Below are positions 4,796 to 43,864 of a stretch of 44,236 nt of DNA, one piece after another; the first letter of the stretch is position 1; each line of letters starts with the position of its first letter. Under the pieces are notes generated by a model that worked only from the letters and a program-made list of their open reading frames with translations, was not told where the DNA came from and did no database searches. This DNA comes from a virus. The translations under genes were made by a program, and so were the position numbers. The stretch is from the IMG/VR virus record IMGVR_UViG_3300005288_000093, positions 1-44,236 of that record; one strand, 5' to 3'.

Positions 4796-4813
4796 TTATG
4801 TGGACGCTCAGCG
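4796..4813 (-). repeat. 18-bp repeat spanning a stop codon, copy 1
   Basis: The minus strand reads CGCTGAGCGTCCACATAA, including the last Arg codon and TGA stop of the polyvalent virion protein. The same 18 bases occur at 25923-25940, spanning the stop of the large terminase gene. The identity continues 12 bases beyond the stop, so shared protein sequence does not explain it. Confidence 0.8.
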
Positions 4814-7800
4814 CTTGGACTCCGGGCTCGCCGCGCCCGTCACCAGGCCGCGCGCCATGTCGCCGCCGCTGGTCGGCGTGATCTTGTCCTCCGACATGCC
4901 TGCCAGATAGCCGAGCGGCCGCGCGATGGCCGCGGCCGGCAGGCCGGTCGTCAGGCTGATCAGCGTGGCCAGATCGCGCACCGCCTTGCGCCCGCTGCCG
5001 CCGTTGACGGCGGCCTCATAAACCGAATGCGGCGCGGACACGGCGCTCTCGAGCATGCTGACCGCGGGCGAGGTGGTGATCCGGTCGTCGTAGGGTTTCT
5101 TGTTGAACGTGTTGATCAGCGCATTTGCCGCCTGCCCCACGCCGGGGATCATGGCCAGACCGCTTTTGACATTTCCCATGACCACCACCGCCATCAGCCA
5201 GTCGTCGAGCGTGCTGCCGTCCTTGTCCTCGTCGTCCGGCCCGCCCCTGAAGGCTTGCGCGATCAGTTCGGCCACCATGTTCGGCACGAGGTAACCGAGG
5301 ATGAATATCTTGAGTCCGCGGCCCATTCCTTTGCGCAGCCCGAGTTCGTGGTAGGTCTTGGCAAATTCCGTGCCCAGGAGGTTGGCCTGCATGTTGAAGT
5401 AGCCGGCGAACTGCGTGAACATGCGCACGAAGGCATTGCCGGTCTCGATGCGGCTCACGTCCTCGGGCATGGTCGACCCCTGCGTCTCGCGCACCGCGGA
5501 GTCGGCCAGCCGCACGGCGTCGCGCTCGCTGCTGCCCTGCTCCAGCGCCTGGTTGTAGGCGCCGGTCCAGACGATGGGCCCGAGGAAGTTATCCACAGCC
5601 GACTGCAGGAAGTACGCATGCTGGGCGGTCCACGCCTGCGCCTTCTCGTAGACGTTCGGGTTCATCAGGATCTGGTCGATGGCATCGGTCATCGCCGCGA
5701 CCTCGCTGTCCATGCGCGTGGCCATGTAGGTCGAAGCTGCGGCCACGGTCTTCGCGGTCTGCCGCGGCGCGATGATCGAATGCGCGGCCGCATCGAGCAG
5801 GTACTTCGGGCGCACCTTGAGCGCGGCCAGGCTGAGGCCCGTGATCTGCTGGGCGGTGTTCGACACGTTCGCGAACATCGCGGCCAGGCCGGCGCGCTGG
5901 CGCAGCTTCGAGAAGAAGCGCATGGTGCCGCTGTCGCCCGGCACCTTCTGTTCCACGGTCTGCCGCGCGGCGCGGTTGAGCCACGGGGTCAGCAGGCCGT
6001 CGAAAGCGGTGGGATCGATGCGGTGCAGCGGTTCGGACACGTCCTTGCTCGCGAGCACCTTGCGCACGTCGCGGATCGGCGGCTCCATGTGCGAGAACAG
6101 CAGCACCTTGTCGATGTGCGTCGACAGCGTGCGCAGGTCCAGCAGCAGCGGCTTGTTGTATTCGACGCGGGCCTTCGTGAAGCCCTTGTTCGTGCTCGGG
6201 AAGGCGTAGGCCAGGGTCTGGTTCTCGTCCTCCTGCAGCGAGCGGGTCGCCGCATCCTTCACCACCTCGGCGTCGGTCATCGCAGGGACGTAGCCGCCGC
6301 GGTAGGTGCCGAACTCGTTGGCGAACTCGCCGGCGCTCACCTCATCGAAGTAGCGGCCGAACACATCGCGGTGCGCCTTCTGCGCCAGCGCCTTGGTGCT
6401 CTCCAGCAGGTCCCAAACGCCCTGGGCGAAATCGTAATCGGCCTTCGTGAGCACCTTCGTGTCGATCATCCGTTTGACGAACGCATCCCAGCGCGAGGTG
6501 TCGAGCGCGCCGGTGATCTCGTTCTCCACCGCCCAGCCGCGCCCGAGCAGCAGCTTGCGCTTGTTGCTCTCGTTGCCAGTGTGCAGGATGGCATGCAGGA
6601 TCTCGGCCTTGCCGCTGCCGCCGCGTGAGAAGCCGAAGGTGTAGCCCAGCTCCGGCGCGGCGATTCGGGACTTGCCCAGGTCGACCGTCTCGAGCAGCTG
6701 CTTGTACGCCTTGATGTACTTGGCCTTGTCGGCGCGGTAGTTGTCGGCCGCCTCCTTCACCGGCTGCCAGATGTAGCGGCGGAACACGCCCATGGTGTTG
6801 GCGCCGTCCTTCACGCCCACCCATGCCTCGACGCGGCGCAGCGCGGCGCGCAGGGTCTGCACCTTGGTCAGCCGGCGCTCGGCGTCCGTCACGGCCTGGC
6901 CTTCGCCCGGCACGCGGTCCGGCACGCCGATCTCGTGCAGCCGGGCGGCGAGGTCGCCCTTGACGCGCTCGATCTCCACCAGTTGGCCGTCGACCTCGAT
7001 CTGGCGGGCGCGCTTGGCCATGTGCCAGAGCCCTTGAATCTCTTCCACCAGGCCGCGGAACTCGTCCACCGTGAGCTCGCCCACCGGCTTGGCGTTGGCG
7101 GTCAGGGCGTCGATCTTCTCGCGCAGCACCGCGTGCATGCCCGGGTCATCCTGCGCCATGGTGTCGAGGTACTTCAGCGCCGGCTCGCCCTTGGTGCCGA
7201 TGCCGTACTCGGCCAGGATGGCGCGCGCCGCCTGCACGGTGCCCACGTCGCGGGTCTCGCCGATCTTCTTGATGGCGGGCCGAATGATCTTCGTGAAGAA
7301 GTCGTTCGCGCGCGTGATCTCGGCCTGCGCGTCGTAAGCGGCCTTGGCCGCGTAGTTGTTCACCAGCTGGTTGCGCTTGTGCATCGCCGCTTCCTGGAGG
7401 TTGCCGATCGATTCCTGGGCGAGCTTCGCGCTGCGCGCCTCGGCTGCGGTGTACTGCTTGGGGCGCACGTCCTTGAGCTTCAGCCGGCCGACGACCGCCT
7501 GCGCGAACTCGCGCGCCGCGCGCGCCATCACGTCGACGGTGCCGCCCGAATAGAGGCTGTCGCCGCTCTCGCGCACGGTGGTCGCCTTGGCGAGAGCCTT
7601 GAGTTCGGTGGCGATGACCTTGGCGCGGACCTCGTTGTGGATCGCTTGCTCGGCCGCGCGCTCCAGCGCCTGCTTGCTGGTGATGTCGCCATGCCGCTCG
7701 AGCATGCGCTGGTCGGTCAGCGCGTCGATGCGCTCGTTCGGGGCCTCGGCCGCCGCCAGCGCCGCGACCAGTTCGCCCCCGGATTCATAGCCGAACAGGT

Positions 7801-10800
7801 CGGCCACGATGTCGGGATGCAGGCCGCTCTTCTCGCTCAGCATGCGGCGCTGCTTCAGGGTCTCGGCGCTGAACTCGTCCATTTCCTTCACGAGCGAGGT
7901 GCGCAGTTTGCCCGACTCCTGCACGGTGTCGATGTTCTCCGGCGCGCGGGTGCCGGGCTCGATCTTGTCCTGCACGCCGGTCAGGAACTGCCATGCCTGG
8001 TACACCGGCTGGGCCATCACCTCGGCGCGCACTTCGTTGCGGATCTCGGTGCGCAGTGCGGCGACTTCCTTCTGGCGGGCCTTCAGCGCGCGGTCCTTCG
8101 CGCGGCTCATCCACTTCATGTCCTTCATGAGCCGCGCGTCGAGCTCGGCGTCGGCCGTGTCGGTGGCGCGCTGGCCGAGCGCCTGGTAGGCGGCGTATTC
8201 TTCGGGCGTCATGCCCGCCTTCTCGGCCGACTCGAACAGCGGGCCCATGTTGCGCGCGTCCTGCGCCTGCTGGATCGCCTCGTCGGTCGCGAGCATGCGG
8301 TCCATCACGGCGCGCACGTCGTCGGTCAGCTTCACGTTCAGGCCGGCCAGGGCCTTGTAGACCGAAATCAGCCAGGCACGGAAGCGTTGGAACACGGCCT
8401 GCAGGTCCTGGCTCGGCGCCTTGCCTTCCATGGCGTACTGCTCGAACGAGCGCGCGAAGGTCTCGTGGTGCTCGCGCTTCTCTTCGAGGCTCATGTTCAG
8501 CCACGTGGCCAGCGGCGACATCTCTGGCGTGCCGACGATTCCGAACGATGCGAGCACCGTGTCCATGTCGGTCACGATCTGGCGCTCGCCCGGCGTCACG
8601 GCGTCGCCGTCGAGCATCTTGCCCTGGATGCGCGCGGCGAGGTCGGCCTGCACTTCGAGGAAGAAGTGCCCGCTCTCGTGGATGAAGCTCGAGAGGTCCG
8701 CCCCTTCCAGCAGCGCGATGACGCTTGGCGAGGCCGCGATGTTGTCGCCGAAGTTGAGCGCCGCGCGCGCCGACTGGTGGAGCGTGTGCTGCTGTTCGGT
8801 GACCAGGTTGGTGGCGCCCTCGCCGATCAGGCCCTTGCGCTGCAGCGATTCGACCATGCCCTTGCCCTGCTCGGTTTGGAACCGGCCCGGCGCGATGCGG
8901 TAGCCAGCGTCCGCGGCGGCCTTGTACATGGCGGCCGCAATGCCCTTGCCGCGGTACGGGCCGGCCACGATGGTGTTCTCCGCTGCCAGCGTGCCGTCTT
9001 CCTTGACCCCGAAATCGATCACACCCCGGCGCAGGCCGCCCGCATCGCGCGCTTCGACCATCACCGAGGGGGTGTCGCGGTTCACGCCGAGCCATGTCTT
9101 GCTGACCTTGATCTGGTACGGATTGCCGTCCTTGTCCTGGGCCTGGGTCTCGACGATGGCCTCGGGCTGCTCCAGCCGCTGCCGGCCGGCCACCTCCTTC
9201 GCGCTGACCTGCAGCTGGTAGCGCTGCATCAGTTCCTGCGCGGTCATGCCGGCGCGCTGCGCCTGGCTGGCATAGAAGTTGCCCAGCAGCGTGGCGTAGG
9301 CTTTGTTCACCTCGGCACGGAACTTGCCGGCCGTGTCGAGTTGCGCCTGGAACTGGTCGCGCACCTGGTTGGCCTGGGCCTGGAACTCGCTGCGCGTGAC
9401 GCGCTTGCTCATCTCGGCTTCGACCTCGGCCCGGATGGCGTCGCCCTGTTTGGACATGAACTCGGTCGCTTCGGCGCGGCTCATGGCGTCGGGCCCGTTG
9501 CGCAGATGGTCGACCAGCGTGGCGCTCAGTTCGCTCGGCGCGGACAGCAACTCGGTCACGGGGATGCGCAGGTCGGCGCCGGGCACATAGTTCGCGTCCT
9601 GCATCTGGCCGGCCACGCTGGGCGCCACGGCCTGCAGTTCGGCCATGGTGAAGCCGGACTGGTTCAGCGTGTTCGCGAGCGTCTCGGCATCGATGTAGAG
9701 CTCGGTCGGCACCGCGCCGCCCTCGGCCACCTGATCGACGAACGCCTTGAAGGTCTCAGGATCGCGGGCGCGCAGCTTGCTGGCCTCCACCACCTTCTGC
9801 AGTTCCTCGATGCGCACGGCCGCCGCTTCCGCCGCGCGGCCCTCGGCGATGCGCTCGCGGATCTGGGTCGTGGCCACGCTGGCGACCTCGGCCGGCGCGG
9901 TGAAGGCTTCGCCGACGAACTCGGCCAGGATATTGCCCGGGTCGAGCTTCTGGCCGGCCGCGATCTCACCACCGGCCTCGCCGGCCGCGCCGAGCGCACC
10001 CTGCACGGGCACCTGGGCCACCACGTTCGCCAGTTCGCGCGCCACCGGCTTGGCGCCGAGCTTGGTGGCGAGGCTCTTCGGCAGCGCGAGCTTCGAGGCG
10101 ACCCCGCCGCTCAGCGCGTCCACGGAGCCCACCACGGCCGCATGCGCGAACGCCTGCCGCGCCACGGAGGACATGATCTCCTTGTCCGCGACCGCCGCCT
10201 TCAGGGCCTCGGGATTGCTGACATCGACGCCGGCCTTGGTCAGGGCCTCGACGATGCTGGCGCCGTAGTCGCTGGTGAACGAGCCCGCACCGAGCGCGGC
10301 CGCGGCGCCCGCAGGCCCACCGGCGAGCCCGGCTGGAATCGCTGCCGCGAGACCGGGCGCGTTGCTCACCAGCGATTCGGGGCCAATGCTCGCGATGAAA
10401 TTCACCGGGTCGGTTGCGAAAGCGTCGATGGCCTGGCGGAAGGTCTCGGCCTTCATGACCTGGTTCACCACGTCGGGTGCGGGGATGGCCTGGCGCTCCT
10501 TCTGGGTGCGCGCCACCGTGGCGATGTTGCCGCCGATGGGGGTGGTGATCGAGGCGCGGAACTGCGCGCGCTGCTCGGGCGTCATGTAGGCCACGCCCAT
10601 GGGGTCGTCGGCCGCGAGGATGGTGCCGGGCTTCTCGCCGGCGTCGATGCGCGCCGCGATGGCGTCGAACTGCTCGAGGCTGCCCACGTTGGAGCGCAGC
10701 GCGGTCGCGGCGAGGCCCTGCTGCAGCCCCGGCACGCCGCGGCGGAAGCTGTTCACCAGCGTCTCGAGCAACCCCATGTTCGCGGTGTCGTCGTGCGCGA

Positions 10801-11092
10801 TGGCCGCGTTCGTCGGATCGGACAGGAACAAGGTCGTGACCGGGTTCATCGTGGCCAGCGCACTGGTGTCGATGGCGGCCAGCGCCTTTTGCTGCTTCGA
10901 CCAGTCGGGCAGCGCCTGCGCGGTGTCGATCGGCACGCCGAGGGTCGCGGCGGTGCGGCGCCAATCGGCGGCCTGGTCGGGGTTCTGCCCCACGGCGTCC
11001 TGCAGCGAGGCGCGCAGCGTGGTTTCCGGGGTCGGCGCGGCGCCGCTCAGGTACTTCGAGACCGCGGCGTTCGCGTCGAATTCATCAGCCAT
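4808..11092 (-). CDS. Giant polyvalent internal virion protein (2094 aa)
   Basis: The start is ATG 11092, overlapping the upstream stop as TGATG; open sequence farther upstream is a shadow of the transglycosylase gene. In order: an Ala/Gly-rich segment (about 255-290) that could span a membrane; a GNAT-like segment with YRGKGIAAAMYKAA around residue 714; a metallopeptidase-like HESGH at 805-809 (FIHESGHFFLEV); long charged helices (about 980-1400); and hydrophobic segments near the C-terminus (FTQFAGYFNMQANLLG and GYLVPNMVAELIAQAF). Position and size correspond to the largest T7-type ejection protein, which enters the cell with the DNA. The embedded enzyme-like domains recall the large polyvalent proteins of phages. 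Their activity is inferred only. Confidence 0.82.
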   Translation of the reverse strand: MADEFDANAAVSKYLSGAAPTPETTLRASLQDAVGQNPDQAADWRRTAATLGVPIDTAQALPDWSKQQKALAAIDTSALATMNPVTTLFLSDPTNAAIAHDDTANMGLLETLVNSFRRGVPGLQQGLAATALRSNVGSLEQFDAIAARIDAGEKPGTILAADDPMGVAYMTPEQRAQFRASITTPIGGNIATVARTQKERQAIPAPDVVNQVMKAETFRQAIDAFATDPVNFIASIGPESLVSNAPGLAAAIPAGLAGGPAGAAAALGAGSFTSDYGASIVEALTKAGVDVSNPEALKAAVADKEIMSSVARQAFAHAAVVGSVDALSGGVASKLALPKSLATKLGAKPVARELANVVAQVPVQGALGAAGEAGGEIAAGQKLDPGNILAEFVGEAFTAPAEVASVATTQIRERIAEGRAAEAAAVRIEELQKVVEASKLRARDPETFKAFVDQVAEGGAVPTELYIDAETLANTLNQSGFTMAELQAVAPSVAGQMQDANYVPGADLRIPVTELLSAPSELSATLVDHLRNGPDAMSRAEATEFMSKQGDAIRAEVEAEMSKRVTRSEFQAQANQVRDQFQAQLDTAGKFRAEVNKAYATLLGNFYASQAQRAGMTAQELMQRYQLQVSAKEVAGRQRLEQPEAIVETQAQDKDGNPYQIKVSKTWLGVNRDTPSVMVEARDAGGLRRGVIDFGVKEDGTLAAENTIVAGPYRGKGIAAAMYKAAADAGYRIAPGRFQTEQGKGMVESLQRKGLIGEGATNLVTEQQHTLHQSARAALNFGDNIAASPSVIALLEGADLSSFIHESGHFFLEVQADLAARIQGKMLDGDAVTPGERQIVTDMDTVLASFGIVGTPEMSPLATWLNMSLEEKREHHETFARSFEQYAMEGKAPSQDLQAVFQRFRAWLISVYKALAGLNVKLTDDVRAVMDRMLATDEAIQQAQDARNMGPLFESAEKAGMTPEEYAAYQALGQRATDTADAELDARLMKDMKWMSRAKDRALKARQKEVAALRTEIRNEVRAEVMAQPVYQAWQFLTGVQDKIEPGTRAPENIDTVQESGKLRTSLVKEMDEFSAETLKQRRMLSEKSGLHPDIVADLFGYESGGELVAALAAAEAPNERIDALTDQRMLERHGDITSKQALERAAEQAIHNEVRAKVIATELKALAKATTVRESGDSLYSGGTVDVMARAAREFAQAVVGRLKLKDVRPKQYTAAEARSAKLAQESIGNLQEAAMHKRNQLVNNYAAKAAYDAQAEITRANDFFTKIIRPAIKKIGETRDVGTVQAARAILAEYGIGTKGEPALKYLDTMAQDDPGMHAVLREKIDALTANAKPVGELTVDEFRGLVEEIQGLWHMAKRARQIEVDGQLVEIERVKGDLAARLHEIGVPDRVPGEGQAVTDAERRLTKVQTLRAALRRVEAWVGVKDGANTMGVFRRYIWQPVKEAADNYRADKAKYIKAYKQLLETVDLGKSRIAAPELGYTFGFSRGGSGKAEILHAILHTGNESNKRKLLLGRGWAVENEITGALDTSRWDAFVKRMIDTKVLTKADYDFAQGVWDLLESTKALAQKAHRDVFGRYFDEVSAGEFANEFGTYRGGYVPAMTDAEVVKDAATRSLQEDENQTLAYAFPSTNKGFTKARVEYNKPLLLDLRTLSTHIDKVLLFSHMEPPIRDVRKVLASKDVSEPLHRIDPTAFDGLLTPWLNRAARQTVEQKVPGDSGTMRFFSKLRQRAGLAAMFANVSNTAQQITGLSLAALKVRPKYLLDAAAHSIIAPRQTAKTVAAASTYMATRMDSEVAAMTDAIDQILMNPNVYEKAQAWTAQHAYFLQSAVDNFLGPIVWTGAYNQALEQGSSERDAVRLADSAVRETQGSTMPEDVSRIETGNAFVRMFTQFAGYFNMQANLLGTEFAKTYHELGLRKGMGRGLKIFILGYLVPNMVAELIAQAFRGGPDDEDKDGSTLDDWLMAVVVMGNVKSGLAMIPGVGQAANALINTFNKKPYDDRITTSPAVSMLESAVSAPHSVYEAAVNGGSGRKAVRDLATLISLTTGLPAAAIARPLGYLAGMSEDKITPTSGGDMARGLVTGAASPESKR

Positions 11093-13356
11093 CAGAACGA
11101 TCCTTGTGCACCGCCACGGCTGGCGGATTTGCTCGAGAAATAGGCGCCGAGGACATCGGCGTCGGTCGGGTTGGCGTTGCCGCGCGCCTTGAACGCCTTC
11201 TTGATGGCGTCGGCCTGGGCGCTCGGAATGTCGCCCACCTTCATGGAAAGCATCTGCTGGCCGGTGGTGCCGGTGTCGAAGCCGAGGAAGGTCTTGCGGA
11301 AGGTCACGTTCTGCGAGAACAGGCCGTCGATGTGGGCCTGCGTCTCCGCGTCGTTGAACTTCTTCCCGGTCTGGCGCTGGGCGTCGATCAGGCTGGAGTC
11401 GATGAATCGGCGGATGGCGCCCACGCGCTGCGCGTCCGCGCTGCCGTCCTTGGGCGTCGGGTCGATGCCGAGCGAGGCCAGGCGCTGGTTCGCCACGCGG
11501 TTGATCGCGCTGTCGTTGAGCTCGCCGGCCGTCTGCCCGGTCTTGCCGCTCAGCAGGTCGGCGCGCTTCTGGGCGAAGTGGTCGAAATCGGACTTCGAGA
11601 GCCCGCCACGCAGCTGGTAGAACTGCGCGTCGCTCATCTTCGCCATGGCCTGCGGGTTGGTGGTCAGGCGAAGGTACAGCCGGTCGTCGGTGGTGTCGTC
11701 GCCGAGCGCCATCTTCTTGCCGAAGGTCATCACCTCGTCCATCTTGTCGGGCGCGAACCGCGCGAGTGCCGCGCGCGTGCTGGCCGGGAGTTCGCTGAAG
11801 CGGCCGCCGTTCTTCGTGAGTTCCTGCATGGCGGCCGAGACGGTCTCGTCCTTGCGCTGCGCGATGGCCTTGTTCTGGTCCTCGTACTGCTGGGTGATCT
11901 GGTCCTGCGCGGTCTTGAGCGCGAGCGGGCTGGCGTTCGGGCCCATGCGCTCGCGCGCGGCCTGGTGCAGCTGGTCGAGCGTCGGGCGCTGCGGGACGCC
12001 GCCCTCGGGCGAATTCATCTGCTTGAGCACGCTCGCGACATAGTTGCGGGTCTCGGCCGGTGCGCTGGCGAGCCATGCATCGGCGGCCACTTGCTCGCCG
12101 CGGCCGGCGTTCTTCTGCGCCTCTTTGACGGCAGCATCCACCCTGCCCTCGCCCCAGTTGTACGCGGCGGCGGCCTTGGCGATGTCGCCGTCGTACATCT
12201 TCACGAGCACGGCGAGCTTCTGCTGGCCCACGCGGCGCAGCTCGGCGGCCTGCTGCTCCTTGCTGCCGCTCATGTCGGCCGGCTTGATGCCATAGCCAGG
12301 GTCCTTGGCGGTGGACGGCATGACCTGCATGTCGCCCTGCGCGCGCTCGCCGCTGCGGGTCATTGGTCCCTGCAGCAGGTTGCCATCGGCGCCGAACACG
12401 CGGCCCTTGCTCTCGACACCCTGAATGATGTTCGTCAGCCGGTCGAAGCTGGTGGGGTCGACGGTCGAGCGGGTGCCGGTGACGATCTGGCTGGCCACGG
12501 CCGCGCCCTGGCGCACGTCGTAGTCGCGCTGCAGCGTGCCGTCGATCTGGATCATGTCGGCCGCGGTCATCCGGTCGCCGTAGCGCTTGCGGTAAGCCAT
12601 GGCTGCGTTCACGTCGCCCTTGTCGAGCGCCGACTTGATGGCGCCCAGGTGCGCGCCGCTGATGGCCTCGGACGCCTTCTCCTGCGCCCACGTGGCGGAC
12701 TTGCCGGCCAGCTGCGCGGAGCCGGGGACAAAGGTGCCGGTGTCCGGGTCCTGCGCGCCCAGGATCGCCGCCTTGATGCGGTCTTCCTGCATCTTCACGT
12801 TCTCGGGGTCCGTGTAGTTCAGCACCAGCGCGTTGGCGGCGTTCTTCACGGTGCCGTCGCGCACGCTGATGGTGTAGTCGGATTGCTCCTTGCTCTCGTA
12901 CTGCAGGGCCCCGCCCAGAAAGCTGGTGCGGATGTTGTTCGCCCGCATCTGGAACATCTGCTTCTGCTTGTCGTTGCCCAGCGTGCCGGCGATGTCGCTG
13001 AGCGTGGTGTCGAGCTTCGCGGTGTACTCGTCGGCCAGCGGAAGGCCGCTCTCGCGGTTCAGCGCGGCGAAGCCCTTCTGGCTGGTGTAGCCCTCGTTGG
13101 GGTCGTGCTGCAGCCGCAGCGCACGTTCGGTGGCCTGGTTCAGGGCGTCGTCGACCCGCACCGCATTGGCCTGGTCGAGGGCCTGCCGGCGCATCGCTTC
13201 CATCTCGCCGCCCAGGCGCACGAGCGAATCGCCCACTTGCTGGGTCTGTTTGGCGCCGATGTTCAGCAGGTCGGCATTGACCGTGTTCTGCTGGCGGAAG
13301 TCGGGTGCCGCGGTGGGCGCGACGGAGGGGCCGGTCAGGCGTGGGACGGTGGCCAT
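11092..13356 (-). CDS. Internal virion protein with lytic transglycosylase domain
   Basis: A 754-residue protein. Residues about 305-410 form an SLT-type transglycosylase domain: catalytic Glu315 in IIQGVESKGR, then GDMQVMPSTAKDPGYG and AKAAAAYNWGEGRVD. This corresponds to the peptidoglycan-cutting part of T7 gp16, although here the enzyme and the giant ejection protein are separate genes. The helical N-terminal 300 residues are probably structural. The enzyme would open a local hole in the wall during DNA entry. ATG 13356 lies three bases after the upstream stop with GGGGAG in front. The stop overlaps the start of the 2094-residue protein by one base. Confidence 0.9.
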   Translation of the reverse strand: MATVPRLTGPSVAPTAAPDFRQQNTVNADLLNIGAKQTQQVGDSLVRLGGEMEAMRRQALDQANAVRVDDALNQATERALRLQHDPNEGYTSQKGFAALNRESGLPLADEYTAKLDTTLSDIAGTLGNDKQKQMFQMRANNIRTSFLGGALQYESKEQSDYTISVRDGTVKNAANALVLNYTDPENVKMQEDRIKAAILGAQDPDTGTFVPGSAQLAGKSATWAQEKASEAISGAHLGAIKSALDKGDVNAAMAYRKRYGDRMTAADMIQIDGTLQRDYDVRQGAAVASQIVTGTRSTVDPTSFDRLTNIIQGVESKGRVFGADGNLLQGPMTRSGERAQGDMQVMPSTAKDPGYGIKPADMSGSKEQQAAELRRVGQQKLAVLVKMYDGDIAKAAAAYNWGEGRVDAAVKEAQKNAGRGEQVAADAWLASAPAETRNYVASVLKQMNSPEGGVPQRPTLDQLHQAARERMGPNASPLALKTAQDQITQQYEDQNKAIAQRKDETVSAAMQELTKNGGRFSELPASTRAALARFAPDKMDEVMTFGKKMALGDDTTDDRLYLRLTTNPQAMAKMSDAQFYQLRGGLSKSDFDHFAQKRADLLSGKTGQTAGELNDSAINRVANQRLASLGIDPTPKDGSADAQRVGAIRRFIDSSLIDAQRQTGKKFNDAETQAHIDGLFSQNVTFRKTFLGFDTGTTGQQMLSMKVGDIPSAQADAIKKAFKARGNANPTDADVLGAYFSSKSASRGGAQGSF

Positions 13357-13359
13357 CTA

Positions 13360-13950
13360 TCAGGCTCCCCGTGCGCTGGTCTGATACCAGCGGCTGGCCA
13401 CACTCGTCGCGCTCGTGAGCAGCGAGTTTCCTGCGGACAGCCATGGGCTGATGCTGCCGGCGCCATTGCGCGCGGCCGTCGATCGGTCCATGTACCCCTT
13501 CGCCTGTTGCCGATACCCCCATGCCTCGCGCGCCGCGTTGTCGCGCAGCTGGGCCGCGTCGATGGAGGTCAGGTAATCGGTGTCATTGAGGACCTGCTGC
13601 GCCGAGCCGACCGACAGGTCGATCCCGTTCGCCGCCATGGCCGCACGCTGCGTTCCTTTGACCTGGCCGCCCTTGAGCATCGCCTGATTGGCGGCCACTT
13701 CGCCGCGGGCCATCGAATCATCGGCCTGCCAGCCGGCCAGCACGGCGTTGTTCTGTTGCACCTGGGCCTCGGCCTGCAACGCGGCCTGCTGGTTCTTGGC
13801 CTGCGTGTAGGCGCCGGTCGCGGAGTAGCCCGCGCCGAAGGACGAGAGCAGCGTGCCCAGGCCCGCGCTGAAAAAGCCGCCCCAACTGCCGCCGCCCCCG
13901 CCTACCGCCATGCCCTGCATGTCGATGTTGTTCTGATCCATGTAGCCCAT
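13360..13950 (-). CDS. Internal virion protein, T7 gp14-like
   Basis: A 196-residue protein with a Gly-rich, hydrophobic N-terminal part (GGGGGSWGGFFSAGLGTLLSS) followed by long helices rich in Ala and Gln (QAKNQQAALQAEAQVQQN). It lies between the tail tube gene and the transglycosylase, the place of T7 gp14, the ejection protein thought to form the outer-membrane part of the DNA channel. Similarity is in layout and composition rather than clear motifs. The start at 13950 has AGGGG upstream, just after a run of seven A on the coding strand (13963-13969). Confidence 0.75.
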   Translation of the reverse strand: MGYMDQNNIDMQGMAVGGGGGSWGGFFSAGLGTLLSSFGAGYSATGAYTQAKNQQAALQAEAQVQQNNAVLAGWQADDSMARGEVAANQAMLKGGQVKGTQRAAMAANGIDLSVGSAQQVLNDTDYLTSIDAAQLRDNAAREAWGYRQQAKGYMDRSTAARNGAGSISPWLSAGNSLLTSATSVASRWYQTSARGA

Positions 13951-40877: not shown

Positions 40878-41077
40878 TGGCCGGCGAAGCATTCTTCATC
40901 TGGTGCGAAATCGTCTGCCGCAGTTGCTCAGGAACCGCTCCCGGGCAATTCACACTGGGAGCCATCCCCAGAGCGGCACTCAAGAAGAGCGCCCTGGAGG
41001 ACGGCTGGAAGTTTGCCCATGGCGAAACCTTCTGCAGTGCCAAATGCCTGCGCGAGTTCGAGGAGCAACAAGCATGA
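40877..41077 (+). CDS. 66-residue zinc-finger-like protein
   Basis: VCRSCSG near residue 15 and FCSAKCLREF near the end place four Cys as two CxxC/CxxxC pairs about 40 residues apart, suggesting a small zinc ribbon. GGAGGTG precedes ATG 40877. Function unknown; such ribbons in early phage operons often contact nucleic acid or host polymerase, but this is inference. Confidence 0.62.
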   Translation: MAGEAFFIWCEIVCRSCSGTAPGQFTLGAIPRAALKKSALEDGWKFAHGETFCSAKCLREFEEQQA

Positions 41078-41121
41078 ACACCGCCCCGAAGCTGCCCGAT
41101 GGCTTGGGGGGAGCATCGTGA
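41074..41121 (+). CDS. 15-codon coupling micro-gene
   Basis: The reading frame MNTAPKLPDGLGGAS begins in an ATGA overlap with the zinc-finger gene (41074-41077) and ends in a GTGA overlap with the HNH-AP2 gene (41118-41121). It may be a remnant of a longer gene whose middle was lost when the endonuclease arrived, or a short peptide whose translation feeds ribosomes to the GTG start. Confidence 0.45.
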   Translation: MNTAPKLPDGLGGAS

Positions 41122-41600
41122 GCGCGATCACGCCCGAGCGGCTTCGAAGTCTGCTCGACTACTGCCCCAATAGCGGCTTGCTCACATTCCGCGTCAGCAA
41201 GGGAAGAAAGCCGGCCGGGTCCGTCGCGGGAACAAAGAATTTCTATGGGTACATCGCCGTCATGCTCGATGGCCGTCTCTATCGCGCCCACCGCTTGATT
41301 TGGCTTCATGTGCATGGGGAATGGCCTGATCAGATCGACCACATCAACGGCGTTCGCGACGACAACCGTCTGTCCAATTTGCGCTCGGTGCCGCTCAAGG
41401 TCAACAATCAAAATTATCGCAAGCCACGAATCGATTCCGCCTCTGGAATCCAAGGCATAACAGCCAGAGGGTCCAAATGGCAGGCCCAACTCACCGTTGA
41501 TGGGAAGAACCATTGGTTGGGTAACTTTCCCACTCGGGAGATGGCGCATCAGGCTTACTTAGAAGCCAAAAGGCAACTTCACGAGGGATGCACGCTATGA
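41118..41600 (+). CDS. HNH-AP2 homing-type endonuclease, GTG start
   Basis: A 160-residue protein. LIWLHVHGEWPDQIDHINGVRDDNRLSNLRSV (about residues 60-91) is the HNH_3 catalytic part, with the His and Asn residues in place. GITARGSKWQAQLTVDGKNHWLGNFPTREMAHQAYLEAKRQLH (about 113-155) is an AP2 DNA-binding domain. This fusion is typical of mobile phage endonucleases. It starts at GTG 41118 behind the 15-codon gene and may have inserted into the operon between the zinc-finger gene and the DUF4224 gene. Confidence 0.88.
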   Translation: MSAITPERLRSLLDYCPNSGLLTFRVSKGRKPAGSVAGTKNFYGYIAVMLDGRLYRAHRLIWLHVHGEWPDQIDHINGVRDDNRLSNLRSVPLKVNNQNYRKPRIDSASGIQGITARGSKWQAQLTVDGKNHWLGNFPTREMAHQAYLEAKRQLHEGCTL

Positions 41601-41824
41601 CCATAGTCCTTTCCAATGAAGAGATCATCCAACTCACAGGCTATCGTTTGGCCACTATGCAGCTCGACCGGCTGCGCAAGGACGGCTTCTACCGTGCCCG
41701 CATGGGGCGCCGCGGCGTCGTCCTGGAGCGCTCGCACTATCTCGCCATCACTGGCGGCCAAGACGTGGCGCCAACTACGCAGCGTAAAGTCGCCAACCTT
41801 TCCCACCTGAGGCCAGCCACATGA
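41597..41824 (+). CDS. DUF4224 protein, candidate excisionase
   Basis: A 75-residue protein. LSNEEIIQLTGYRLATMQLDRLRKDGFYRARMGRRGVVLERSHYL (about residues 5-49) is a DUF4224 winged-helix-like domain, usually encoded just before phage tyrosine integrases. It may act as the excisionase that steers the integrase towards excision. ATGA joins it to the endonuclease before it and to the integrase after it (41821-41824). Calling it an excisionase is inference from position. Confidence 0.75.
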   Translation: MTIVLSNEEIIQLTGYRLATMQLDRLRKDGFYRARMGRRGVVLERSHYLAITGGQDVAPTTQRKVANLSHLRPAT

Positions 41825-42915
41825 TCCGCTCGCGCGCAAACCCTGACGGCCTGCCGTTCCGAGTGTACGAGCGCTACGGTGCACGGGTGTACAGCATCGG
41901 CTACAAGTTGCCCTCAGGCCGCTGGGCATACAAGTACCGCTGTAAGGTCGAGGACGCCAACCAGATCCGCAAGCTGCGCCGGCAGGCCATTGAGGAATCG
42001 ACTCGGGTTGTGCACGACGCGCCCGAGGGCGGCTTCAAAGGGCTGGTTGATGCGTGGTTCGTGCACCAGGCCGAGCTTCCGACCACCGACGCCACGAAGC
42101 GAGCCGACAGCACCATTGCGGAGAACAAGCGCGAGGCTGCCATGCTCACCAAGGCGTGGGGCCACTTTGAGGTGGAGGAAATCACCGCCAAGATGGGCAT
42201 TGACTACCTGAAGGCATGCAAGAAGACGCGGCCCCTCAAGGGCAACAAGGAAATCTCTCTCGCGCGGCTGATCATGCAGCACGCCATTGGCCTCGGGATG
42301 ATCGAAACCAACCCGCTGAACGACATTGAGCGGAACAAGGTGGTGGAGGTGAAGAAGCGCTACGTCACGCACGAGGAAATGACGCTGGCCGTGGAGATGG
42401 GCCGGAAGTTTGGCGGGGCGCGCCTGATCGTCGCCCTGGCGCTGAAAACGGCGTGGCTGTGCGTGCGCCGGTCGTTCGAGGTCCGGCAGATCAAGCGCGA
42501 GTCCGTGACGCCCTCGGGCATCCTCTGGACCGACTCAAAGAGCAAGACCAAGCCGACGATCCTGATCGAGTGGTCGCCGGAGTTGTCGGCCACGATCTAT
42601 GAGGCGATGGAGGTGAAGCGCAACGCGGACGCCGGCACCATGTACCTGTTCGGCAATCTTCGCGGCGAGCCTTACACGAAGGGCGGATGGAAGGCGATGC
42701 TCGACGATCTGATGCGCGAATGCGTGCTGGAGGCGAAGCGCCGGAAGATGCCGTTCCAGAAGTTCTCGCTGCAGGACTGCCGGCCCAAGGGGGTTACGGA
42801 CAAGCTGGAACGCGGCGACACCGACACCAAGGACGCAACCCTGCACAGCTCGGACGCGATGATTGCACGGCACTACGACCGGACACGGTCCAAGAAGGCT
42901 ACGCCTGCGGGATGA
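41821..42915 (+). CDS. int: Tyrosine integrase
   Basis: A 364-residue tyrosine recombinase. An N-terminal arm-type binding region (to about 70) is followed by a core-binding domain (about 72-170) and the catalytic domain. The first catalytic Arg is in AWLCVRRSFEVRQIKR (216-217), Lys lies in DSKSKTKP (about 240-244), the second Arg in LQDCRPKG (Arg321, with Gln318 where His is usual), His342 in LHSS and the nucleophile Tyr352 in ARHYDRT. It would recombine attP at 43803-43852 with a host tRNA-Asp gene. Its stop overlaps the methyltransferase start. Confidence 0.92.
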   Translation: MIRSRANPDGLPFRVYERYGARVYSIGYKLPSGRWAYKYRCKVEDANQIRKLRRQAIEESTRVVHDAPEGGFKGLVDAWFVHQAELPTTDATKRADSTIAENKREAAMLTKAWGHFEVEEITAKMGIDYLKACKKTRPLKGNKEISLARLIMQHAIGLGMIETNPLNDIERNKVVEVKKRYVTHEEMTLAVEMGRKFGGARLIVALALKTAWLCVRRSFEVRQIKRESVTPSGILWTDSKSKTKPTILIEWSPELSATIYEAMEVKRNADAGTMYLFGNLRGEPYTKGGWKAMLDDLMRECVLEAKRRKMPFQKFSLQDCRPKGVTDKLERGDTDTKDATLHSSDAMIARHYDRTRSKKATPAG

Positions 42916-43595
42916 TGAATGAACTACACCTCTTTGCAGGAGCGGGCGGCGGAATCCTCGCCGGCCAACTTCTTGGACATCGATGCATTGGAGCCGTCGA
43001 ACGAGAGCCGCGCGTCCAATCCATGCTGCTTGCCAGACAAAGGGACGGGAGTCTTCCCGCGTTCCCAGTCTTCAGCGACATTCGAACTTTCGACGGTAGA
43101 CCCTACCGCGGCCGAGTTGACATCGTGGCTGGCGGGTTTCCCTGCCAGGCCTACAGCGGAGCATCTCGAGGACGCTCGGTGGCTGAAGACCTCTGGCCGG
43201 AAATGCTCCGGGTCGTGGCAGATGTCGCTCCCAGGTACGTCTTTGCCGAGAACGTCGCGCGCAAAGCCATCGACGCAGCAGCCGACGACCTTGAAGCGCT
43301 GGCTTACTCCGTCCGCTGTATGGCGCTTTCCGCGTCAGACGTGGGTGCTGACCACATTCGGCAGCGATACTGGCTTCTTGCACACGCCGACGCACACGGC
43401 AAATTACGCATGCCGGTCGATGCAGAAGTGGCCCAATTGCCGCGAGTACGTCCGGGTGTTTGGCAAACCGAGCCCGACGAACCACGAATGGCTGATGGGA
43501 TGGCCCATCGGATGGACCGCATCGAGGCCACTGGAAACGGACAGGTTCCGCTCGTGGCTGCGACTGCATTTCGACTGTTGATGGAGGCAATGTGA
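42912..43595 (+). CDS. C5 cytosine-specific DNA methyltransferase, compact
   Basis: A 227-residue enzyme starting ATGATG at 42912 over the integrase stop. Motif I is LFAGAGGG (7-14), motif IV GGFPCQAYSG with catalytic Cys78, motif VI FAENV with Glu113, motif VIII IRQRYWLLAHAD, and motif X GNGQVPLVAATAF (208-220). Only about 45 residues separate motifs VIII and X, so the target-recognition domain is minimal and the target site cannot be predicted. No restriction enzyme partner is present. It probably protects phage DNA from host restriction. The 42919-43581 frame overlaps it almost entirely. Confidence 0.9.
   Translation: MMNELHLFAGAGGGILAGQLLGHRCIGAVEREPRVQSMLLARQRDGSLPAFPVFSDIRTFDGRPYRGRVDIVAGGFPCQAYSGASRGRSVAEDLWPEMLRVVADVAPRYVFAENVARKAIDAAADDLEALAYSVRCMALSASDVGADHIRQRYWLLAHADAHGKLRMPVDAEVAQLPRVRPGVWQTEPDEPRMADGMAHRMDRIEATGNGQVPLVAATAFRLLMEAM
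42919..43581 (+). CDS. Overprinted frame inside the methyltransferase gene
   Basis: An open frame of 220 codons, offset by one base from the methyltransferase. It starts NYTSLQERAAESSPANFLDI and ends with TNHEWLMGWPIGWTASRP followed by LETDRFRSWLRLH. I recognise both ends from phage proteins annotated as hypothetical or methyltransferase-linked. The C-terminal stretch reads over the same DNA as motif X of the other frame. Long antisense or offset frames are common in this GC-rich genome, so openness alone proves little. The claim rests on the recognisable motifs. Confidence 0.4.
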   Translation: MNYTSLQERAAESSPANFLDIDALEPSNESRASNPCCLPDKGTGVFPRSQSSATFELSTVDPTAAELTSWLAGFPARPTAEHLEDARWLKTSGRKCSGSWQMSLPGTSLPRTSRAKPSTQQPTTLKRWLTPSAVWRFPRQTWVLTTFGSDTGFLHTPTHTANYACRSMQKWPNCREYVRVFGKPSPTNHEWLMGWPIGWTASRPLETDRFRSWLRLHFDC

Positions 43596-43864
43596 AGAAG
43601 CCGACCTATGCGCAGCTACTGGTGGCAGCGAACACCGTGGCGTGCGGATACGACGGAGTTGAGGGCGGCCATGATGCATGGGTAGACGCGCTCCGTGTGG
43701 TCGAACTGGCAAACTCATATTCCAAAGTTCGCAAATCAGATTCCAAAAACCAGAATGGGCTAGCAACCGAAGCTGCTAACCCATTGATTTCTAAAGAGAA
43801 TCTGGCGGAGTGGACGGGACTCGAACCCGCGACCCCCGGCGTGACAGGCCGGAGCCAGAAGTGA
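43592..43864 (+). CDS. Small gene reading into attP, GTG start
   Basis: A 90-residue frame starting at GTG 43592 (GTGA overlap with the methyltransferase stop). The first 45 residues (PTYAQLLVAANTVACGYDGV, then HDAWVDALRVVELANSY) look like a genuine small helical phage protein. The end, EWTGLEPATPGVTGR, is the translation of the tRNA-Asp complement in the attP core, not a protein domain, and the last three codons lie beyond the core. On integration this end should be replaced by host sequence. Confidence 0.6.
   Translation: MKKPTYAQLLVAANTVACGYDGVEGGHDAWVDALRVVELANSYSKVRKSDSKNQNGLATEAANPLISKENLAEWTGLEPATPGVTGRSQK

Follow-up and report, generated by a model that had tools for sequence, protein, structure and literature searches.

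Two overlapping reading frames of one phage gene predicted to encode both subunits of a C5-cytosine DNA methyltransferase

Introduction

Long overlaps on the same strand in which two functional proteins are encoded are rare and hard to prove. The locus described here, in a viral contig of 44,236 nucleotides (referred to as the window), raises this very question, namely whether a methyltransferase gene is also read in a second frame, and if so, what the second product contributes. We propose, with a probability of roughly 0.86 and judging from sequence, that two frames of the same locus specify the two subunits of a single C5-cytosine DNA methyltransferase, a predicted alpha/beta heterodimer of the M.EcoHK31I kind. 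The statistical power is unusual, as hundreds of natural variants are available together with lineages in which the overlap has been resolved, and these also serve as a natural experiment on which part of the overprinted frame matters.

Results

The catalytic frame and its missing motif

The assignment of frame A to the C5 methyltransferases, made in an earlier, sequence-only reading on the strength of motifs I, IV, VI, VIII and X, was confirmed by a match to PF00145 (8.9e-20), which ends at residue 160, and by a full-length match to the methyltransferase family phrog_363 (6.2e-49). An in-frame ATG is found at 42912, just 5' of the codon that begins the MNEL sequence, and it is the MNEL start at 42915 that is conserved among relatives. 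By inspection, the motifs read FAGAGGG (I), GGFPCQ (IV), ENV (VI), QRYWLLA (VIII) and GNGQVP (X), such that the core of a C5-cytosine DNA methyltransferase (PF00145; motif I, the PCQ of motif IV, the ENV of motif VI, and motif VIII) is present in this frame. An AlphaFold model of frame A adopted the HaeIII/HhaI catalytic fold, with 1dct as the best PDB match (E 1.4e-11), and its low-confidence residues were 162-181 and 190-200. The monomeric enzymes M.HhaI and M.HaeIII share this catalytic fold and motifs I-VIII with frame A, but in each of them a single chain contains a small recognition domain and all motifs in the order from I to X, whereas the small domain is absent from frame A, and no motif IX was found there by inspection of the sequence and of the relatives' alignments. 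Frame A is therefore not of the monomeric form, in which all motifs from I to X occur in one chain. The missing motif IX, overlooked in the earlier reading, explains why frame B exists. In the proposed mechanism, SAM binding and catalysis would be the task of the alpha subunit, which has motifs I to VIII as its core and motif X in addition. The features of the locus are collected in Table 1.

Table 1 Features of the methyltransferase locus, in window coordinates
Feature	Positions	Strand	Basis or remark
Integrase-like gene	41821..42915	+	phrog_216 integrase (1.7e-05); directly upstream, its TGA stop overlapping the alpha start
Shared start region ATGATGAATGA	42912..42922	+	alpha starts 42912/42915; integrase TGA 42913-42915; beta ATG 42919
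Frame A (alpha), C5-cytosine methyltransferase	42915..43595	+	226 aa from MNEL
Frame B (predicted beta), offset +1	42919..43581	+	220 aa; overlaps nearly all of alpha
Motif IV of frame A (GGFPCQ), containing the catalytic cysteine	43131..43148	+	sequence; invariant in the relatives' alignment
Residues ~140-217 of beta, predicted to be its functional part (TWVLTTFG..HTPTHTANYACRSMQKWPNCREYVRVFGKPSPTNHEWLMGWPIGWT..LETDRFRSWL)	43336..43569	+	sole part kept in the fused relatives L001 and L279
Frame-B-constrained stretch (alpha aa 161-203)	43395..43523	+	pos3/pos1 ratio 0.66-0.68; entropy lower in B
Motif IX-like EWLMGWPIGWT (frame B)	43486..43521	+	aligned with AquI-like beta subunits of phages (hhalign)
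Motif X GNGQVP (frame A)	43533..43550	+	sequence; the LETDRF stretch of frame B overlaps the same bases

The second frame is kept open across the family

The second frame had been described as shifted by one base and open for 220 codons, which is indeed the case. In the window gene alone, however, frame B stays open in 9.7% of synonymous-codon permutations (P=0.0965), which is not significant; the gene is GC-rich, and an open +1 frame of 220 codons in it is, taken singly, not unusual. It is the relatives that decide between chance and selection. The count of open frames was limited to loci fetched with the frame-A profile only (L031-L104), since fetching by frame-B similarity (L105-L264 and L280-L359) favours loci in which frame B is open; the first 3 and the last 15 codons were excluded. 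Frame B was fully open in 52 of these 68 viral loci, as against 0.39 expected, and the mean number of frame-B stops was 0.25 where 4.85 were expected. The loci that did contain a stop mostly had a single one, with almost the entire frame otherwise open. Frame B was also open in genes of 39-50% GC, for which the null predicts 5-8 stops. Among 30 dereplicated relatives of at least 50% identity, no frame-B stop occurred in codons 21-200, while the +2 frame contained hundreds; thus, the interior stops in close homologues that would have spoken against a second gene were not encountered. A chance open frame was rejected on these family data, even though the window gene by itself cannot reject it. 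The similarity of frame B among relatives, measured over the synonymous-permutation null, also showed a larger excess than that of the +2 frame in every divergence bin; as the +2 excess is itself above zero, part of the similarity signal must stem from shared ancestry or arise secondarily from the constraint on frame B.

The start of frame B is preserved as well. Its ATG follows the MNEL start by 4 nt, in the sequence ATGAATG, and is present in 62 of 66 relatives fetched by frame A. Of 139 genes in which the second residue of alpha is Asn, 138 encode it by AAT, whereas AAC is the commoner Asn codon in the rest of the same genes (546 AAT vs 851 AAC). This retention of AAT and of the ATG at +4 favours independent initiation of frame B, and the beta subunit would thus be expressed from its own start, with one ribosome-binding site probably common to both.

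These results bear on two other explanations. One denies that frame B is a gene and treats both its openness and its similarity as by-products of a GC-rich, conserved frame A; it agrees with the P=0.10 of the window gene and with the first ~140 residues of frame B, which show no protein-level constraint beyond openness. It does not account for the avoidance of stops in relatives, including those at 39-50% GC, for the excess over the permutation null or for the kept start, and it is refuted by the change of constrained frame and the non-overlapping fused copies described below, so that we find it barely credible. The other invokes programmed frameshifting, a common event in phages, by which ribosomes translating alpha would reach the C-terminus of frame B and produce a second isoform, with motif IX replacing motif X. 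Two relatives (L152 and L166) are in line with it, their alpha core being joined in frame to the C-terminus of frame B, apparently by an indel (a mutation or a sequencing error); however, frameshifting requires neither a stop-free frame B upstream of the shift nor a kept AAT and ATG at +4, and the fused forms retain motif X too. We regard it as very improbable.

Different frames are constrained in different parts of the gene

In a +1 overlap of this type, position 3 of a frame-A codon is position 2 of a frame-B codon, and position 1 of frame A is position 3 of frame B. The substitution pattern was thus measured in 63 short-class relatives as the ratio of differences at frame-A positions 3 and 1 (pos3/pos1). 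The ratio was 1.7-2.3 over residues 1-120 of alpha in these relatives, and fell to 0.83 (residues 141-160), 0.66 (161-180) and 0.68 (181-203); among close relatives it was as low as 0.13 in residues 181-203. At motif X it rose again to 1.58-1.92 (1.58 for residues 204-216), placing the constraint back on frame A. The amino acid entropy in residues 161-200 was 0.92-1.26 bits for frame B and 1.63-2.14 bits for frame A, i.e., frame B was the more conserved of the two. The flip in the ratio and the entropy together document that frame A is constrained in the catalytic core and in motif X, and frame B in the stretch between them (43395-43523). Protein-level constraint in frame B is found in only about the last 80 residues, and the first ~140 show little beyond the avoidance of stops; in the proposed beta subunit, the latter would be an out-of-frame reading of the alpha core that is open but barely constrained.

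The earlier suggestion of a dual-coding gene under selection in both frames was thus borne out by four tests (stop-avoidance, the flip in substitution periodicity, preservation of the start codon, and the existence of a non-overlapping, fused copy of frame B), but with protein-level selection on frame B confined to its C-terminal part. Dual coding, selection specific to each frame, the split of the motifs and, through fusion, a functional link between the two products are documented here by computation.

The C-terminus of frame B is a candidate motif IX region

The absence of any independent family for frame B would have counted against it, but its C-terminus matched phrog_26627 (2.3e-10), phrog_35493 (4e-10) and phrog_1008 (0.0017), the last annotated as 'DNA methyltransferase' and matched by longer frame-B relatives at up to 5e-28; most of the PHROG families matching frame B are of 'unknown function'. 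Both ends of frame B had previously been taken as recognisable from other phage proteins, and this holds for the C-terminus, with its PHROG matches and a conservation of its own. The N-terminus, NYTSLQERAAESS, is merely a shifted reading of motif I, and its recurrence in relatives reflects the conservation of frame A at this place. Frame B of the window had no match in Pfam or NCBIfam, and a Pfam search with 42 frame-B members returned scattered, weak DUF matches only, which were judged to be chance. A sequence search of solved structures with frame B, as a single sequence and as a profile, gave no match. The structural model of frame B had a pLDDT of 51.5 and no fold match by Foldseek; its confident part was residues ~161-200 (pLDDT 78-86). 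In a relative from Stenotrophomonas phage SOVA965 (L009:1743-2243), the coding sequence annotated as 'DNA-cytosine methyltransferase' is frame B and not the catalytic frame.

The nature of the C-terminus was suggested by profile comparison. With hhalign, EWLMGWPIGWT of frame B was aligned with EWMMGLEPGWV (E 8.1e-05, probability 61%, 22 columns), a sequence found in the split methylases of Streptomyces and Gordonia phages, where motif X comes next in the same polypeptide. As EWMMGLEPGWV precedes motif X, EWLMGWPIGWT would be motif IX, the one absent from frame A. On this short profile match of modest score and on the motif order, we identify the C-terminus of frame B as the probable motif IX region. 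That GNGQVP in frame A (43533-43550) and EWLMGWPIGWT in frame B (43486-43518) lie within one stretch was correctly noted before. The accompanying proposal, in which shifted copies of motif X gave rise to the frame-B families, did not find support, the sequence being motif IX and its flank. A shifted motif X was also rejected as the origin of frame B on the ground that motif IX followed by motif X occurs in one polypeptide in AquI-like proteins and in that of the relative L234. Motif IX-like frames B over the motif X region were also seen in distant methyltransferases of Bacteroides phage BS162P3 (L270), Lacticaseibacillus phage R23.9 (L271), Synechococcus phage S-H1 (L274) and mycobacteriophage Jinglebell (L272), the hosts of which belong to other phyla.

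In the proposed heterodimer, the last ~80 residues of beta would supply the motif IX region in trans, and beta most likely provides part of the DNA-recognition domain, which would give it a share in reading the target. Frame B could instead be an independent overprinted protein, e.g., one with an anti-restriction or regulatory role and no part in methylation, as the 'unknown function' label of most of its families would allow. Such a protein, however, would not be expected to resemble the motif that alpha is missing, to be fused to alpha in L001 and L279, or to match a family annotated as methyltransferase (phrog_1008), and the same motif is carried together with motif X in one beta polypeptide in L234 and the Streptomyces phages; we consider this explanation very improbable.

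Fused and variant relatives

In two relatives, L001 (MT837127) and L279 (IMG/VR 3300017718_000584), the methyltransferase runs in frame past motif X into the frame-B domain. The extension (HTPTTMANY..KSMMKH..EYLMGMPIG or EWLMGFPIG) is homologous to frame-B residues ~140-217, with 48% identity to frame B over 77 aa (E 4e-17), and the overlapping frame B of both relatives is riddled with stops. These fused copies argue that the frame-B domain is a real protein sequence, kept without any overlap and accompanying the methyltransferase, and that the first ~140 residues appear to be dispensable. In the tree, L001 and L279 are nested within the clade of the window (17 rows, 100/100); from this nesting, the fused state looks derived, with the caution that the branches of L001/L279 and of L027 are long and join one another. 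Natural circular permutations have been described (PMC5944983), from which the I-VIII-X-IX order of L001 and L279 differs.

Another relative, L234 (Spirochaetia), has motifs IX and X both in frame B, and its frame A closes after motif VIII, an AquI-like arrangement; it is nested in the tree beside overlapping relatives. In L143 (2415-2750), the motif IX/X end of an overlapping methyltransferase is interrupted by an insertion in the third frame that resembles an HNH endonuclease; phage methylases with hidden HNH endonucleases have been reported (PMC11855218).

Discussion

Relation to known two-subunit enzymes

The window locus is likened, by description, to M.EcoHK31I (X82231) of E. coli, a two-polypeptide C5 methyltransferase recognising YGGCCR, in which the motifs are split as in our alpha and beta. 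In the M.EcoHK31I paper of 1995, the small subunit was reportedly read from an alternative frame inside the gene of the large subunit, and a second polypeptide in an alternative frame is likewise found in the window and its relatives. According to PMC3404938, the large polypeptide of M.EcoHK31I contains motifs I-VIII and X and is predicted to include the recognition domain, whereas the small one has motif IX alone. Frame A of the window similarly contains motifs I-VIII and X without IX, and frame B contributes a putative motif IX, EWLMGWPIGWT, at a modest profile score. The window differs in the position of beta, which begins 4 nt downstream of the alpha start and extends over the entire gene, and in having the conserved stretch between motifs VIII and X in frame B and not in alpha; moreover, its methyltransferase gene belongs to a phage, and no restriction enzyme was recognised next to it.

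In M.AquI and in the 'DNA methylase' pairs of Streptomyces and Gordonia phages, the core and motif IX are on separate polypeptides, as predicted for the window, and in the pairs Vash gp32/33 and Float294 gp62/61 the two subunits also come from overlapping frames. In all of these, however, beta carries both motif IX and motif X, whereas the window keeps motif X with alpha: GNGQVP is in frame A, and the constraint at that place is on frame A.

Spread and implications

The overlapping arrangement was found in 257 of 265 loci, both in viral contigs and in genomes, a figure that is no estimate of prevalence, because many of the loci were found by frame-B similarity. The genomes with this arrangement belong to Pseudomonadota, Verrucomicrobiota, Planctomycetota, Acidobacteriota, Bacteroidota, Bacillota and others. 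The Pseudomonas phages PS-1, Marin and Shamal also have this locus. In E. coli, blastn with L029, L006 and a mixed query matched four genomes only, and the one examined carried a prophage copy. Plasmid searches returned three and five records, and among 392 genomes of one family, three had a match, none of them in an evident restriction-modification system. The EcoHK31I-like layout, known from a handful of bacterial enzymes but treated as an exception, is here, as far as sequence comparison can tell, that of a large phage and prophage family in which beta spans the whole alpha gene. We lean slightly towards a broader view, in which this layout would represent a very widespread, old class of phage enzyme, with motifs IX and X superimposed in two frames, a target-recognition element in the overprinted frame, both subunits starting at one ATGAATG, and some lineages having resolved the overlap by C-terminal fusion (I-VIII-X-IX).

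Judging from its phage setting, the heterodimer would methylate phage DNA and probably shield it from host restriction. For many phage methyltransferases the annotation gives a single protein, although a subunit from the second frame is probably needed; thus, a recoded alpha alone would be expected to fail, e.g., in the assignment of specificity.

Other features of the window

An excisionase-like gene (41588-41824) lies directly upstream of the integrase, and is preceded by an HNH endonuclease with an AP2-like domain at 41013-41600 (phrog_99, 4.5e-59). Just downstream of the integrase and methyltransferase genes, on the minus strand (43803-43855), a sequence like the 3' half of tRNA-Asp, with a terminal CCA, was recognised by eye; no complete tRNA was found there by ARAGORN and no match in Rfam, and the position of this half is consistent with an attachment site. 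Finally, the minus strand contains an ORF of 2904 aa (4808-13522) among podovirus-type tail and head genes, the sole match of which was phrog_9880 (function unknown).
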